From positions 1-28,404 of IMG/VR virus record IMGVR_UViG_3300020457_000067: a stretch of DNA of 28,404 nucleotides. One strand, written 5' to 3'. Positions 4,578 through 21,983 of the stretch are shown one piece after another. Positions within the stretch are counted from its first letter, which is position 1. Every line of letters starts with the position of its first letter. The translations under genes and the position numbers were made by a program. The DNA is from a virus. The notes beneath the pieces were generated by a model. That model searched no databases. It saw nothing but the letters and a program-made list of their open reading frames with translations, and had not been told where the DNA came from.

Positions 4578-4772
4578 ATGAAAACTAATAAAAACAATTT
4601 TAAGAAAATAGTAGTTTTTAATTATTTGCGAGATAGGAGGTTTGGCGAAGATGCTTTAACTCAAGATCAAGCAACGGAGGTAATCAATAACGATCAGATA
4701 TGTGAGTTAATGTACAAACACATAGAGCAATTAAAGGAGGTTTATAATGGGAAGTGTGCATTTATTAAGTAA
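4578..4772 (+). CDS. Small unknown protein, 64 aa, possible recombination directionality factor
   Basis: The protein begins MKTNKNNFKKIVVFNY, has a basic N-terminal third and a helical, acidic C-terminal part, and overlaps the integrase start by 26 bases. Its ribosome site is weak (GAAAGG, 12 bases upstream). A small gene co-transcribed with the integrase is the usual place of an excisionase, but I see no winged-helix signature. Its own coding sequence carries the strong ribosome site of the integrase, so it may mainly couple translation of the two. Confidence 0.5.
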   Translation: MKTNKNNFKKIVVFNYLRDRRFGEDALTQDQATEVINNDQICELMYKHIEQLKEVYNGKCAFIK

Positions 4773-6039
4773 AAGACAAATTGTTAATCAATGGGAGAAA
4801 GAGAATGGCCAATCTTCTATTTATAATATTTATAGGAAAGGCGAATTTTATGGTTATCAAACTAAATTAAAAAGACTTGATGGTTCGGTAAAACAAATTA
4901 CGAGCAAAGATTATGATAAGCTCTTAAAGAAAATAGAGGGTCAGTTAAAGAAAATTGACGAGGGTAAGATACTTGTTAAAAGACCGAAAGCAACAATCAT
5001 TAGTGCAATTCATGGATACGTTGAGGAACTAAGGAAACAAACAAAGGTATTAGATCGGCAAGATAAACCGGTAGTATCAATTGGCAACTTTAATTATAAA
5101 AGTGGTTTAGCAAAAGTTGTTATGGAAACGATTTCTAAAGATGAAACACTTTCTAAAAAAAATATAAACAGTTGGCAAGGTTATGACATGGTAAGGGTCA
5201 TGGCTGTATTAAGAGAACGATCATCTTCTGCGAATGTACTTGGTGCGTATTTGCGTATATTAAAGGACTCTTTTTTCCATGCTATGAATACAAATGATTT
5301 TGATATTCAAAAAGAAAATCCAGTTGTGCAATATAAGAAGAATCCAATTAACATGGCTGAGTTAAAGGTTGACCCATTTATTCATATAAACGAGACAATG
5401 AATTTAATTGAAAGATGGCATATCCCATTCGTTAACAAGTTTACATCTAGTATTAATGACCCTGTATATAAAATTTTAATTCGTTTATGTTTTAGTTATG
5501 GATTGAGAATAGGTGAGGCACTTGCGCTAAGTGTAGATGACTTCATAGACAAGGTTGGAAACATAGCTCCAAAACTTGATGTATATGGTCAGATTTCCAA
5601 AGATGAGTATAAGAGAATTACTAAAACACCTTCTGGTAAAAGATTAATACCGGTTGGTAAGGGGTTAGCAGATGAATTGAGGGAGTATATTAAATTTAGG
5701 AAGGAAAGTGTGTATGACTCAAATTGTGATGCTTTGTTTCCATATGATCGTTATGGCCAAAAAGGTTATCATATTTATAGGACTGCCCATAAACAGTTAA
5801 TGAGATATACAGTTGATGAATTTGAACTGCCTAATAATCATAAATTTCATTTCTTTAGGCATTGGTGTATCACTTCCTGGAAACGTAATGCTATACATAC
5901 AGGCTATGATATTAGTAGGTTTGTAGGTCATAAGAACCCAGCAGTTACGGAAAGACTATATACCCATTTATATTGTACTCAATTAGAAGAAGAACATAGA
6001 GTTGATAAACAGGATTACTTAGATAATTTACTTTTTTAA
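4747..6039 (+). CDS. int: Tyrosine-family site-specific integrase
   Basis: The enzyme integrates and excises the phage genome at att sites through a 3'-phosphotyrosine intermediate. The 430-aa protein has all catalytic positions: Arg254 in YGLRIGEAL, a strand lysine near 298 in PSGKRL, His368 and Arg371 in HFFRH, His395 in VGHKNP and nucleophile Tyr405 in RLYTH. Residues 20-75 form an N-terminal arm-binding-like region and about 80-195 the core-binding helices. AAAGGAGG precedes the ATG. The gene converges on the late operon, and their coding ends overlap by 12 bases. It shows a temperate lifestyle, unless the element is a defective prophage. Confidence 0.93.
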   Translation: MGSVHLLSKRQIVNQWEKENGQSSIYNIYRKGEFYGYQTKLKRLDGSVKQITSKDYDKLLKKIEGQLKKIDEGKILVKRPKATIISAIHGYVEELRKQTKVLDRQDKPVVSIGNFNYKSGLAKVVMETISKDETLSKKNINSWQGYDMVRVMAVLRERSSSANVLGAYLRILKDSFFHAMNTNDFDIQKENPVVQYKKNPINMAELKVDPFIHINETMNLIERWHIPFVNKFTSSINDPVYKILIRLCFSYGLRIGEALALSVDDFIDKVGNIAPKLDVYGQISKDEYKRITKTPSGKRLIPVGKGLADELREYIKFRKESVYDSNCDALFPYDRYGQKGYHIYRTAHKQLMRYTVDEFELPNNHKFHFFRHWCITSWKRNAIHTGYDISRFVGHKNPAVTERLYTHLYCTQLEEEHRVDKQDYLDNLLF

Positions 6040-6357
6040 TTTTAGTAGGTGATCGAGAGGATTTTTTGGGAAACCTAAATCACTTTTACGTTGGTTTTCT
6101 TCTTCGATTCTTTTGTTGTTAAAATGAATTTCTAAACATTTATCCATAGGAGAATGATGAAAATAAGTTTTTTCGATTGTAGGAAACATTTGTTCCTCTA
6201 CTACAAAACCATCTTTTCTTAAAACATCTTTCTTACAAATAGGACAAGTACCCATAACATCAGTACCTGGATATTTTCTACTGTAAGGATGATATTTGTT
6301 TGGTTGCCTATTTTTTACCAAAAAACTTTGTAGCTCCACGAATTCCAAATGACGCAC
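6028..6357 (-). CDS. Putative zinc-binding protein, 109 aa, last gene of the late operon
   Basis: The protein has a CPIC motif (Cys38, Cys41), then FHH (His67, His68) and a Cys74/His78 pair, a plausible single zinc site. The C-terminal third is basic and Asn/Lys-rich. The ATG at 6357 gives a 50-base overlap with the holin gene and has a weak ribosome site. The next in-frame Met (residue 35) would be unusually close to CPIC, so the start is uncertain. Function is unknown. Its 3' end overlaps the integrase 3' end on the other strand. Confidence 0.55.
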   Translation of the reverse strand: MRHLEFVELQSFLVKNRQPNKYHPYSRKYPGTDVMGTCPICKKDVLRKDGFVVEEQMFPTIEKTYFHHSPMDKCLEIHFNNKRIEEENQRKSDLGFPKNPLDHLLKLKK

Positions 6358-6688
6358 TTACGATTAAACCTAATGTATATTTGTACCAGTCCGGAGCTTG
6401 CTTTAATGCCTCAAAACCAGCAAACACTATATCTCTACCCCAATCACCACAGAACGCGAGTATCAAGGGGATGCTGAAAAGCAAAGTTAACCATTCGTCT
6501 TTCCAGCTATCATCTGCTTGTTTAATTGCCTCAATATCCCAATCAATTTCTCCAGCTATCTGTTTCTTTTTAATTTCAGTTTCAGCTTTTATTTGAGTTA
6601 GTTTTTGCTCTGCTTTTGCTTTTCTTGTTTCAACAACACCACCAACAATACTGCCGGCAACATCCATTAATGGTTTTAACCAGATCAT
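6308..6688 (-). CDS. Holin, GTA/3TM type
   Basis: Holins collect in the inner membrane and open it to release the endolysin. The 126-aa protein has a charged coiled-coil-like N-terminal half (20-55), the family-like segment DDSWKDEWLTLLFSIPLIL (59-77) leading into the first clear membrane helix, and a second one at about 101-115, with a basic C-terminus KFFGKK. This is the architecture I know from the 3TM holin family of gene-transfer agents and alphaproteobacterial phages. It overlaps the upstream exported protein gene by four bases and lies two genes from the M15 peptidase. Confidence 0.75.
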   Translation of the reverse strand: MIWLKPLMDVAGSIVGGVVETRKAKAEQKLTQIKAETEIKKKQIAGEIDWDIEAIKQADDSWKDEWLTLLFSIPLILAFCGDWGRDIVFAGFEALKQAPDWYKYTLGLIVSASFGIRGATKFFGKK

Positions 6689-6918
6689 ACTTCTTCTCCT
6701 TTAATCATTTTACATTTAAAATTTATTTGCAATAAATGTTCCGGTTGGTTTTCAAATACATGAATAAGGTCATGCTTTAAATCAATACTGTTATCTTTTA
6801 AGAATACCTTGCAACTATCCTCATTATTAAATCTTACTTTTTGATACTTGGACTCAACGGATTCCGAGTTAGCAAAAATTAGGACTACTGTAATTGCCCA
6901 AATGTTTAATAGCTCCAT
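6685..6918 (-). CDS. Small exported or membrane-anchored protein, 77 aa
   Basis: Residues 4-16 are a hydrophobic segment (LNIWAITVVLIFA) followed by NSES, which reads as a short signal peptide or anchor. The mature part has two Cys (36 and 69) that could form a disulfide in the periplasm. It lies between the M15 peptidase and the holin and overlaps both, so a part in lysis, for example spanin-like, is possible. There is no lipobox and no Pro-rich segment to prove it. Confidence 0.55.
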   Translation of the reverse strand: MELLNIWAITVVLIFANSESVESKYQKVRFNNEDSCKVFLKDNSIDLKHDLIHVFENQPEHLLQINFKCKMIKGEEV

Positions 6919-7334
6919 ATAGTAGGCCTTAATACACCCTCTTGCGCTGTAATCATGTCTAAATGGATGAATCTGGAGTTTCCTCTCTGGTTGACCCCAA
7001 TGCCCATAAAATTCATTTCCATAGCCATTTTAAGCACTATATAAGCTCTTTCTCGATCACAAACGATGTCAACAGCCTTTCCAGTCGTATGCGCGCCTCC
7101 ACCATTGCCTTTTGCAAGTTCAATGCTGTGATTTGGGTCGCGATAGAATGAACTTATAACAAATGGAAAACCACACTTCTCTCTAAGGGTAGTTAAGCTA
7201 TCCATGAACCTTTCATCATATCCAAGAATGTTTGTCTCTTTACATTTAACCTCATCTATTGAGAAGTATTTGTAATCCCATTTATCTACATAGCTTATTG
7301 GGTCTTGTATTTTTATTAAATCATCATTTTTCAT
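6906..7334 (-). CDS. M15-family peptidase, endolysin
   Basis: M15A peptidases cut peptide cross-bridges of peptidoglycan using a zinc ion. The 142-aa protein begins with the family-like F-S-I-D-E-V-K-C region (24-31), has the ISSFYRDPNHS segment (60-70) and the zinc motif AHTTGKAVD with His82 and Asp89, and ends with IHLDM (third ligand His124) and RPTIWSY. It is a single catalytic domain without a signal peptide, so release needs the holin. Its start overlaps the stop of the nuclease-like gene (ATGA). Confidence 0.88.
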   Translation of the reverse strand: MKNDDLIKIQDPISYVDKWDYKYFSIDEVKCKETNILGYDERFMDSLTTLREKCGFPFVISSFYRDPNHSIELAKGNGGGAHTTGKAVDIVCDRERAYIVLKMAMEMNFMGIGVNQRGNSRFIHLDMITAQEGVLRPTIWSY

Positions 7335-18616: not shown

Positions 18617-19255
18617 TTACTCGTTAGATACAGTACCCCTCATAACTAGAGGAGCATCTTGGTTGTATTTGTTTGCAAGGTTAATGTTAATAACTCTATC
18701 CAAACCATTCGTGTAAAACTTAAACCATTCTTGAACTATCTGTTGGTCTATGCCCCTTATAAAAGAATGTGCAAAGTATAAAGAACCAAATAAATATACG
18801 TCTGGATGATATGTAAGAACATCATTAGTATCTGTATCATTTACTAAAGCATCAAATTGTTTGTAGTAATACATTTTAACAGAGTAAGTTGAATCCGGTA
18901 CAGGGTAAAAATGAATTTTATCATTTATAATTGTATATACTTTTGGCATACCAGTTAATGATGAACCATACATATCAAAAGCCTGTGATGGTGTTACATA
19001 AGCTAATGCAACTTTTGGACTTCTATCTACATAAATAGAATTTATACCTAAAAACCCTGTCGGCAGAGACTCTGTTTCAGCATCCGCGCTTATAGTTTGC
19101 AGATTTATCATTTTGTTGTAACCGCTTTGAGCTAATTTTGAATTAAAATCTTGCTCTGCTAATGCAACAAAATCAGACAATTCGTTTGTTAAATCTGATC
19201 TACCAAGCCAGTTTGCTATACTTGATTTTAAGTTTGCGTAATTATTTAGTGCCAT
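18617..19255 (-). CDS. Head-tail adaptor, SU10-type
   Basis: The 212-aa protein has the conserved start NYANLKSSIANWLGRSDLTN (5-24), then SDFVALAEQDFNSKL, PTGFLGINSIYV and HFYPVPDS. This is the pattern of the phage adaptor family, whose members ring the portal and hold the tail hub. It fits the SU10-type capsid protein in the same operon. The gene abuts the upstream 110-aa gene without overlap and lies two bases from the stabilisation protein. Confidence 0.78.
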   Translation of the reverse strand: MALNNYANLKSSIANWLGRSDLTNELSDFVALAEQDFNSKLAQSGYNKMINLQTISADAETESLPTGFLGINSIYVDRSPKVALAYVTPSQAFDMYGSSLTGMPKVYTIINDKIHFYPVPDSTYSVKMYYYKQFDALVNDTDTNDVLTYHPDVYLFGSLYFAHSFIRGIDQQIVQEWFKFYTNGLDRVININLANKYNQDAPLVMRGTVSNE

Positions 19256-19590: not shown

Positions 19591-20241
19591 TTATTTATAA
19601 TTTTTGTATTCCCAATCTACTTTTTGTAAATTTAATTGAGGTTTATTTATGTCAGTTATCTGTCCACAATTCCAATTTTCATGTTCTTTAAAAAAATCTG
19701 GTGTAACTTTCCACAATGCAGTTGCTAAATTATATCGAGTACCTTGATATATACTTGATACTCTATGTAATTGTGCAGAGTCAATTAAGACCATTCTGTT
19801 TTCTACTGCTTTAATTCTTTCTATTTCGTTATTGTCAATACACCTTGCAGATTTTTGTGAGTCTTCTAATCCATTTCTATTTTTGTAAGGTGCAATTTCT
19901 AAAAACCCCCCTTTACAATCAGCAGTAACTTTAGGGTAATAAAGTAAACTTTGTTCAGAAATCCAATAATTATCACTAAAATAATAATACTCACCAGTAT
20001 CTTGATGCCATTCTAAAAATCCACCAGAGCTTATAACCCTAGACCAATACTCAAAACCACCATTGGGGTATTCAGTTGGGTCAATATAGTCTTGCCACAA
20101 TAATTGTATAACTTCTTCAACTTTATTTCTTGGTTCTTCATTCCACCAGCCACACCAGTAATTATATTGTGGCATAGTTTTATAACTTAAATGTTCAGTT
20201 AAATCGTAATTTAAGTTAAGAACATTATCCTTAACGATCAT
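19591..20241 (-). CDS. 2-oxoglutarate/Fe(II)-dependent oxygenase
   Basis: These enzymes use Fe(II), O2 and 2-oxoglutarate to hydroxylate or otherwise oxidise a substrate, here unknown. The 216-aa protein has the jelly-roll motif His79-Gln80-Asp81 (EWHQDTG), a distal His159 (QLHRVS) and Arg169 ten residues later (QGTRYNLA), which would bind 2-oxoglutarate. GGFLEI and ENRMVLID are typical strands. I start it at the ATG at 20241, which overlaps the stop of the membrane-protein gene (ATGA), rather than 16 codons earlier inside that gene. Prolyl-hydroxylase-like and phage DNA or protein hydroxylases are both possible. Confidence 0.8.
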   Translation of the reverse strand: MIVKDNVLNLNYDLTEHLSYKTMPQYNYWCGWWNEEPRNKVEEVIQLLWQDYIDPTEYPNGGFEYWSRVISSGGFLEWHQDTGEYYYFSDNYWISEQSLLYYPKVTADCKGGFLEIAPYKNRNGLEDSQKSARCIDNNEIERIKAVENRMVLIDSAQLHRVSSIYQGTRYNLATALWKVTPDFFKEHENWNCGQITDINKPQLNLQKVDWEYKNYK

Positions 20242-20447
20242 AAATAAACTAAAAAATTTAAGTAATCTAAAATAGGTGCATATTTCCAACCAAATCCAAA
20301 TAGAAAATTGGCAACATATATAAACCCATTAATAATTATTATTTTAGTTCCTAAGAATACAAAGATTACAAATAGAATAGTTTTAGTTAATCCGTAATTT
20401 TTGTGAAAGTTAATTAATTTTCTTAGTAAAGGAAAATTCCATTTCAT
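20238..20447 (-). CDS. Small membrane protein, 69 aa, between COQ4-like and oxygenase genes
   Basis: A basic N-terminus (LLRKLINFHKNYG) is followed by two closely spaced hydrophobic stretches, about 21-39 and 41-58, then a hydrophobic C-terminus. It overlaps the COQ4-like gene by four bases at its start and the oxygenase by four at its end (ATGA at both), so the three are coupled. COQ4 acts at membranes on a lipid quinone, so a membrane anchor or lipid-access partner is an attractive guess, but no homology supports it. Confidence 0.55.
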   Translation of the reverse strand: MKWNFPLLRKLINFHKNYGLTKTILFVIFVFLGTKIIIINGFIYVANFLFGFGWKYAPILDYLNFLVYL

Positions 20448-21298
20448 ATTTGTTTTATGTTATCTTCTTTTTTATCTTTATGTAGTGGATGTTGCCACGC
20501 ATTGTAGTAATCCCATTTTTCAATTTGTCTGCATGAGTAAGGTGCTAAATGATTATGGTATCTTTTTTCAAATGCCTCATAGATAGGCACTTCACCAATG
20601 TTAAATTTTTTTCTGACTTCTTCTAAATCACTTTCTAAAAAATCTAATGGGCTAATTACCCCTAGTTCTTTTTTACATTTTTTTAGATTTGCTTTACACT
20701 CTTTGTAAACTTTCCAAACACCTCTGTAATCACCAGTTTTTTTTGCTACGGATAACATAACAACAAAACCAATTATTTGTGATGGCTTGTAGTCTAAAAG
20801 GTGTCCAGTTACTTCTTGAATTAAACCCTCACCTAAAGCATGAGTATTGTATCTAAACAAGGTATGTAAAATATCATGTGTAATTACTACATGACGAGAT
20901 AAGTTTGTTCTTACAACATCAAGACGAGATTTCACTTCGTCATCTTTAAATCTTTGGTTATAAAGTACCTCAAGACCAAGATTTCTAACAATTTTATAAT
21001 ATTCTGCACCGACTGTATTGGATGGCAAAGATGACAAATAATCCATATCCATCAACTTAGGTAAAACTGTTTTTTCAACATAATCTTTATCGTTATGTTT
21101 TCTACCCCATACAACGTCTTGACCTAAAGTTGTTTGAGTAGCTTTATTCATCATCATAAGGCCAAATGGGAATTGCATTTCTCTATATAATGTTGTGACT
21201 GGAATACCCAGTTTATCTTCTTCCATCTGTTCTTCAGATTTATTGTATATCTGAATAATGTCATTTAATGATCTTCCAATTTTATATAAATTCCACAT
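20444..21298 (-). CDS. COQ4-family protein, putative ubiquinone-biosynthesis factor
   Basis: COQ4 is required in coenzyme Q synthesis and has been linked to the C1 oxidative decarboxylation and hydroxylation step. The 284-aa protein has the family core in order: LPSNTVGAEYYKIV (91-104), RFKDDE (116-121), and the metal motif HDxxH-x11-E fully intact as His141, Asp142, His145 and Glu157 (HDILH ... LGE). Helices after that are amphipathic (IIGFVVMLSVAKKTGDYR). The N-terminal 60 and C-terminal 70 residues go beyond the minimal fold. The gene lies in the late operon between unknown genes and an oxygenase. Enzymatic activity is inferred from motif integrity. Confidence 0.78.
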   Translation of the reverse strand: MWNLYKIGRSLNDIIQIYNKSEEQMEEDKLGIPVTTLYREMQFPFGLMMMNKATQTTLGQDVVWGRKHNDKDYVEKTVLPKLMDMDYLSSLPSNTVGAEYYKIVRNLGLEVLYNQRFKDDEVKSRLDVVRTNLSRHVVITHDILHTLFRYNTHALGEGLIQEVTGHLLDYKPSQIIGFVVMLSVAKKTGDYRGVWKVYKECKANLKKCKKELGVISPLDFLESDLEEVRKKFNIGEVPIYEAFEKRYHNHLAPYSCRQIEKWDYYNAWQHPLHKDKKEDNIKQI

Positions 21299-21299
21299 A

Positions 21300-21983
21300 T
21301 TAAATTACTATCTTTATGATTCTTGCTGGTATTGAGCTTTCATTTTTAATTGAAACTGAAATACTTTTTAATTGTCTTAGTTCGTTTTCTTCTATGTTAG
21401 AGCTTGCTATTGAACAGTTAGCAGAAAATAGAAGGTAGTTATCACCATCTGATTTATTTATTGTTTTTGTTTGGCCAACATCAATATCAATAATTTTTAA
21501 ATCATAGGGTTTGTCAGATATAAAACAAAATAACCTGGTATCATCTTCTTGAGCCATAATGTCGGTTTTTGTTGCTAATGCCCACTCATTAGCTTTAGGG
21601 CTAAACTCATCATAATCAGCACCAAAATTATAAATTGTAGTTAATTGTTTATTTGCGATTGCGTCTGGTGTTGACGTTTGGTTATAATTACCAGAACGTA
21701 TTTTATCATCACTTGTTAAATCTTTATATCTATCTATATCAGCAGTTGTAATATCACCATCATTATCCCAATATTGTTTGTACTCAACAGAGCCTTTTAA
21801 CAATATTAAATTGTTTGGTGTCTTAAAAATTTTAGAACTTTGTGTGTCGTAAGTTAAATTATCACCATTAACATTATCACTTAAATTAATTCGTTGTATT
21901 AAATCAAATTTATTACCAGCATTTATTGTAATTTCTGATTCATTAAAATAATGTTTTTTGATTGCGTTAAAATCGTATCTCAT
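21300..21983 (-). CDS. Unknown late protein, 227 aa
   Basis: A soluble, Asp/Asn/Thr-rich, mostly beta protein with segments such as LILLKGSVEYKQYW and a C-terminal strand series ending SIPARIIKIVI. It has two Cys and no membrane segment. It starts at the stop of the upstream 131-aa gene (one-base overlap) and ends one base before the COQ4-like gene. It could belong to the fibre module upstream or to the accessory cassette downstream. No family is recognised. Confidence 0.55.
   Translation of the reverse strand: MRYDFNAIKKHYFNESEITINAGNKFDLIQRINLSDNVNGDNLTYDTQSSKIFKTPNNLILLKGSVEYKQYWDNDGDITTADIDRYKDLTSDDKIRSGNYNQTSTPDAIANKQLTTIYNFGADYDEFSPKANEWALATKTDIMAQEDDTRLFCFISDKPYDLKIIDIDVGQTKTINKSDGDNYLLFSANCSIASSNIEENELRQLKSISVSIKNESSIPARIIKIVI

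Follow-up and report, generated by a model that had tools for sequence, protein, structure and literature searches.

The window, by which we mean the whole stretch of 28,404 bases analysed here (33% G+C, from a record of an uncultured virus), contains a gene for a COQ4-like protein that reads from an ATG at 21298 down to 20444, stop codon included, and whose stop overlaps by 4 nt the start of a gene for a small membrane protein (Table 1). The same strand carries an SU10-type major capsid protein, an SU10 adaptor and tail-fibre genes, in agreement with the late-operon placement given in an earlier note on this DNA. By capsid, the nearest isolates are mixed and comprise phages of Pseudomonas, Pelagibacter (HTVC106P) and Sinorhizobium. 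The tyrosine integrase suggests a temperate lifestyle, no tRNA was found within the window, and the 227-residue protein encoded directly upstream of the COQ4-like gene matched nothing in Pfam or PHROGs. In another record, L007, homologues of the window's M15-type peptidase and holin-like region sit shortly downstream of the COQ4-like gene and its membrane partner.

Table 1. Features of the window discussed in the text, with position, strand and supporting evidence.
Feature	Position	Strand	Evidence or remark
COQ4-family protein, 284 aa	20444..21298	-	Pfam Coq4, motif, Foldseek, dN/dS
69-aa single-pass membrane protein, constant partner	20238..20447	-	MKWNFP N-terminus
227-aa protein, directly upstream of COQ4-like gene	21300..21983	-	Conserved neighbour in late-operon placements
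2OG-Fe(II) oxygenase-like protein, downstream of pair	19591..20289	-	Pfam 2OG-FeII_Oxy_3, 27.6 bits
SU10-type major capsid protein; marks phage group	26461..27426	-	PF17236, 282.6 bits
SU10-type adaptor protein; late operon	18617..19255	-	PF24175, 108.9 bits
Tyrosine integrase	4747-6039	+	
M15-type peptidase, likely endolysin	6906-7334 (region 6308-7334)		
Possible holin-like membrane protein	6308-6688		

Membership of the COQ4 superfamily, which the earlier note had proposed from the letters of the gene, is well supported by profile, profile-profile comparison, fold and motif. The Pfam Coq4 HMM matched the window protein at 27.7 bits (E 2e-6; cut-off 22.9) over profile positions 71-220 of 221, and matches in other records reach positions 28-218. 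All 10 proteins in one set of other records and 17 of 20 in another scored above the cut-off; a few distant members fell under it (18.9 bits for L049, 21.8 for L024), and the best score among phage members, 49.9 bits (E 3.3e-13, for L045), was above the window's own. Aligned by hhalign against ten plasmid-borne cellular Coq4 proteins, the phage alignment matched with 98% probability (E 1.1e-13) and with the motifs in register. Two AlphaFold models reached pLDDT values of 77 and 80, with low confidence in the N-terminal loop and at the C-terminus, and a Foldseek search of the PDB with these models returned as significant (E<=0.001) only the COQ4-family entries 6e12 and 3msq, at E values of about 1e-5 to 1e-4 and target-normalised TM scores of 0.72-0.78. 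Nothing similar to this fold was present in the BFVD viral structure library, and no PHROGs family matched the protein. A chance occurrence of the motif is ruled out by the Pfam and hhalign matches, the fold and the invariance of the motif across distant phages; identity as a DUF3793 protein was rejected, as that match (E 0.013) lay below the cut-off.

The residues H141, D142, H145 and E157 occupy the HD-xx-H-x11-E spacing in the 284-residue ORF exactly as first described, a motif found also in human and ancestral COQ4 (PMC7615680) and spanning H163-E179 in the human protein (PMC9774615). The metal residues proved to be kept without exception in a comparison of 31 phage proteins, the most distant of them about 25% identical, and the motif is present in nine of nine plasmid-borne cellular proteins as well. 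Upstream of it, the LP..(V/L)GxEY element was correctly recognised, its sequence SLPSNTVGAEYY being the counterpart of the cellular LPxxTLGxxY. The proposed R-F-x-D-D-E element stood only in part: aligning the whole family shows R116 in every member and F117 in most, without conservation of the D-D-E that follows, and other phages have RFKPEE, RFEEPE or RFKKEE at this site. Across 27 diverse members the invariant columns are P44, T95, V96, G97, R116, N132, H136, H141, D142, H145, Y150, T152, G156, E157, E200, D224 and R229, so the four motif residues are among the few that never change. The gene is under strong purifying selection, with dN/dS values of 0.07-0.23 between the window copy and six relatives.

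Beyond the protein itself, our analysis revealed a two-gene module that is new here and does not appear in the earlier note. At 27 of 28 loci the next ORF downstream of the COQ4-like gene encodes a small membrane protein of 55-82 residues that overlaps or abuts it; overlaps range from 1 to 62 nt and are most often 4, the start codon being uncertain where the overlap is long. These partner proteins have one or two predicted hydrophobic segments, mostly a single transmembrane helix, preceded in 25 loci by a W-[NDK]-[WF]-P segment; two further loci, L049 and L053, carry a divergent version. The sole exception among the 28 loci is the T4-like record L046, in which no partner is in place downstream of the COQ4-like gene. 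The association also holds in the reverse direction: pattern searches with subsets of the partner alignment returned, for the window's subclade, 17 loci, every one on a contig already known for its COQ4-like gene, and, for a second subclade, 11 loci, made up of seven known contigs, one cut off before the gene and three new contigs in which a COQ4-like gene lies directly upstream of the partner.

The pair is common to SU10-like podoviruses and T4-like phages, and among the latter, two almost identical contigs show a clean exchange of exactly these two genes. Between the T4-like contigs L038 and L043, flanking proteins are 93-99% identical, whereas the COQ4-like proteins share 49% and the partners 43% identity; L038 and L040 are about 97% identical in DNA on either side of a stretch between about 10015 and about 11050, where the figure is about 50%, and this stretch matches the ends of the COQ4-like and partner genes. 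In a podovirus comparison that leaves out loci L031-L047, the pair retains 67-90% identity, whereas the genes around it mostly show much lower similarity or are absent. Taken together, the two-gene swap in T4-like phages and the conservation of the pair amid differing podovirus flanks indicate that the pair travels as a unit.

The surroundings of the pair fall into distinct arrangements. In podovirus-type late operons, and in L046, whose T4-like identity was checked by its head closure, head-tail adaptor and sheath stabiliser genes, the COQ4-like gene is preceded by a protein of about 230 residues. Homologues of the window's 227-residue protein share 24-43% identity with it where the similarity is directly detectable, and in other phages 4-14 nt separate their genes from the COQ4-like gene that follows; such homologues occur in different phage groups (L022, L025, L032, L034, L046, L047 and L053), and the copies of L046 and L025 connect to the window copy via L053 and L022. 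Such a conserved neighbour within a tail-fibre context, recurring in a T4-like phage, speaks for a reading in which the COQ4-like protein is a virion or tail-assembly protein with a retained fold, and its partner and the protein of about 230 residues are assembly factors. We consider this improbable, as a strict metal motif and a membrane-spanning partner would be unexpected for a fibre chaperone, the pair has been swapped without its neighbours, and in one T4-like group it lies away from structural genes. The 2OG-Fe(II) oxygenase-like gene downstream of the pair is a recurrent, not constant, neighbour: it is also present in L001 and L011, another 2OG-oxygenase gene follows the pair in L053, and no homologue was found in L005, L007 or L013.

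In that T4-like group (L019, L029, L038, L043 and L075), the pair clusters with genes for a redoxin, a phosphoribosyltransferase, a glutaredoxin, a glycosyltransferase and PhoH, and in some members also with IscU and IscA-type genes, which are missing in L038; families were scanned on L043, and genes of the other contigs were recognised by sequence similarity. A compact redox and Fe-S island is seen in L043 (8836-12317), L075 (3992-7280) and L029 (8862-12068), composed of a redoxin, a phosphoribosyltransferase, a small transmembrane protein, the COQ4-like pair, IscU (NifU_N), an IscA-type protein (Fe-S_biosyn) and a glutaredoxin. Judged by one glycosyltransferase, the nearest isolates of the L043 group are mainly alphaproteobacterial phages; the corresponding regions of Sinorhizobium phage phiM12 and Caulobacter phage Cr30 contain a glutaredoxin and a glycosyltransferase and no annotated COQ4-like gene. 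These neighbours bear on the idea that the module attacks host respiration, depleting or modifying the host quinone so as to halt competing metabolism or prepare lysis. A late position with a membrane partner and an intact metal site would suit such a role, but redoxin, glutaredoxin, IscU and IscA-type neighbours fit redox support better than destruction, and we regard it as a poor prospect.

An IMG/VR protein search yielded 17 close loci, and profile searches brought the total to 52, down to 25-30% identity. A tblastn search with five diverse phage proteins (P0001, L022, L024, L029 and L075) against 50,697 phage records returned nothing, or noise at E 0.9. Two scans in which about 85,000 prokaryote genomes were searched for peptide patterns, a method that can miss divergent copies, found no close cellular relative, and the cellular relatives that were found are weak matches in plasmids. 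In a maximum-likelihood tree whose cellular sampling consists of nine plasmid-borne proteins, phage and cellular sequences split with 100/100 support on long branches, and podovirus and T4-like copies interleave within the phage part. From these sequences, the phage proteins appear to form a deep branch of the COQ4 superfamily that is confined to phages, and given the length of this branch and the lack of a close cellular relative among the genomes scanned, the substrate is not readable from orthology. We found no paper in the open-access literature searched that ties coq4 to a phage gene, and a phage COQ4 branch with a constant membrane partner is previously unreported in the sources searched. 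A ubiG gene in Baltic Sea viruses resembles our case in that viruses were proposed to influence the ubiquinone pathway through it; it was rejected as a viral coq4 precedent because it is a different gene, a methyltransferase of an unrelated family, and the paper names no COQ gene (PMC9301287).

Known members of the family offer a guide to function. With human and yeast COQ4 (PF05019), the phage protein shares the profile match, HD-xx-H-x11-E, the LP..T(L/V)G..Y element and an all-helical fold (predicted in the phage protein); it differs in having no mitochondrial or synthome context and in having a dedicated membrane partner. The phage proteins also have an N-terminal MWN..KI segment that COQ4 lacks and, except in the subclade of the window, a C-terminal HPxYxD likewise absent from COQ4. 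The solved homologues Alr8543 of Nostoc sp. PCC 7120 (PDB 6E12) and Npun02000094 (PDB 3MSQ) are the best Foldseek matches, with the motif aligned, but are about 14-18% identical to the phage protein and are bacterial genes of unknown physiological role; to our knowledge they have no conserved membrane partner. COQ4-family genes are also found in cyanobacteria, which make no ubiquinone. On Novosphingobium plasmids, Coq4-family genes (L087, 457-1275; L086, 1210-2028) adjoin "acyclic terpene utilization" genes, a setting unrelated to ubiquinone. Human and ancestral COQ4 have Zn-dependent decarboxylase activity (PMC7615680), and the homologue from Nostoc, whose ligand was at first given as geranylgeranyl monophosphate in an entry since replaced, has Mg at the motif (PMC9774615); the 6e12 structure of Alr8543 has oleic acid bound.

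Combining this literature on COQ4 and its Nostoc homologue with the membrane partner, we arrive at a COQ4-type protein that would be docked at the membrane and act there on a prenyl lipid. In such a module, the small membrane protein translated from the overlapping ORF would insert into the host inner membrane and recruit or stabilise the helical COQ4-like protein there; the helices of the latter would enclose a polyprenyl lipid, on which the HD-xx-H-x11-E metal centre would act. The likeliest substrate would be the quinone pool of the host or a precursor of quinone, and the module may thereby keep up or alter respiratory or redox capacity during infection. A quinone or other prenyl lipid is likely to be acted on at the host membrane, and the quinone pool is the leading candidate because of the redox and Fe-S neighbourhood in T4-like phages; the C1 oxidative decarboxylation of ubiquinone synthesis, to which the earlier note pointed, may be one possibility among several. 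We regard the chances for and against this membrane module, with a quinone or its precursor as the likeliest substrate, as evenly balanced. Neither UbiA (PF01040) nor UbiE (PF01209) was found in 18 phage records, none of them known to be complete, which counts against a quinone explanation, although the host may supply both. The podovirus location in a tail-fibre region beside the protein of about 230 residues, away from metabolic genes, likewise argues against it, and the lack of a partner in place in L046 argues against the module explanation.

The strongest competitor is that the COQ4 fold has been reused, the module binding a polyprenyl phosphate or a fatty envelope lipid, such as undecaprenyl phosphate, for late functions that could include setting the time of lysis, altering the envelope or shutting out competing phages. 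The podovirus late-operon site beside tail-fibre genes, upstream of an M15-type peptidase homologue in L007, is consistent with this, as are the geranylgeranyl monophosphate or oleic acid held in a Nostoc COQ4-family structure and the existence of COQ4-family genes in non-ubiquinone settings (the Novosphingobium terpene-utilisation plasmids and cyanobacteria). Against it, one T4-like group has the pair among redox and Fe-S genes, and the invariant HD-xx-H-x11-E suggests chemistry over plain binding, and we think reuse of this kind rather unlikely. Returning to a quinone or prenyl-lipid role, we tentatively propose, with slightly less confidence than in the membrane module itself, that a mobile module of a COQ4-family enzyme and a membrane partner, often with the protein of about 230 residues as a third component, changes the host quinone or prenyl-lipid pool during infection.

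COQ4 was long held to be a scaffold, and a catalytic role has been assigned to it only recently. Our searches of phage records, BFVD, PHROGs and open-access papers turned up no viral member of the family. If true, the module would represent COQ4 in viruses for the first time and add a new, membrane-anchored variant to the family. Its small soluble-plus-membrane pair would provide a compact test system for the membrane docking of COQ4 and for the role of its metal motif. The exchange of exactly two genes, together with strong selection, points to a benefit during infection from acting on a lipid of the membrane, which may be the respiratory quinone.
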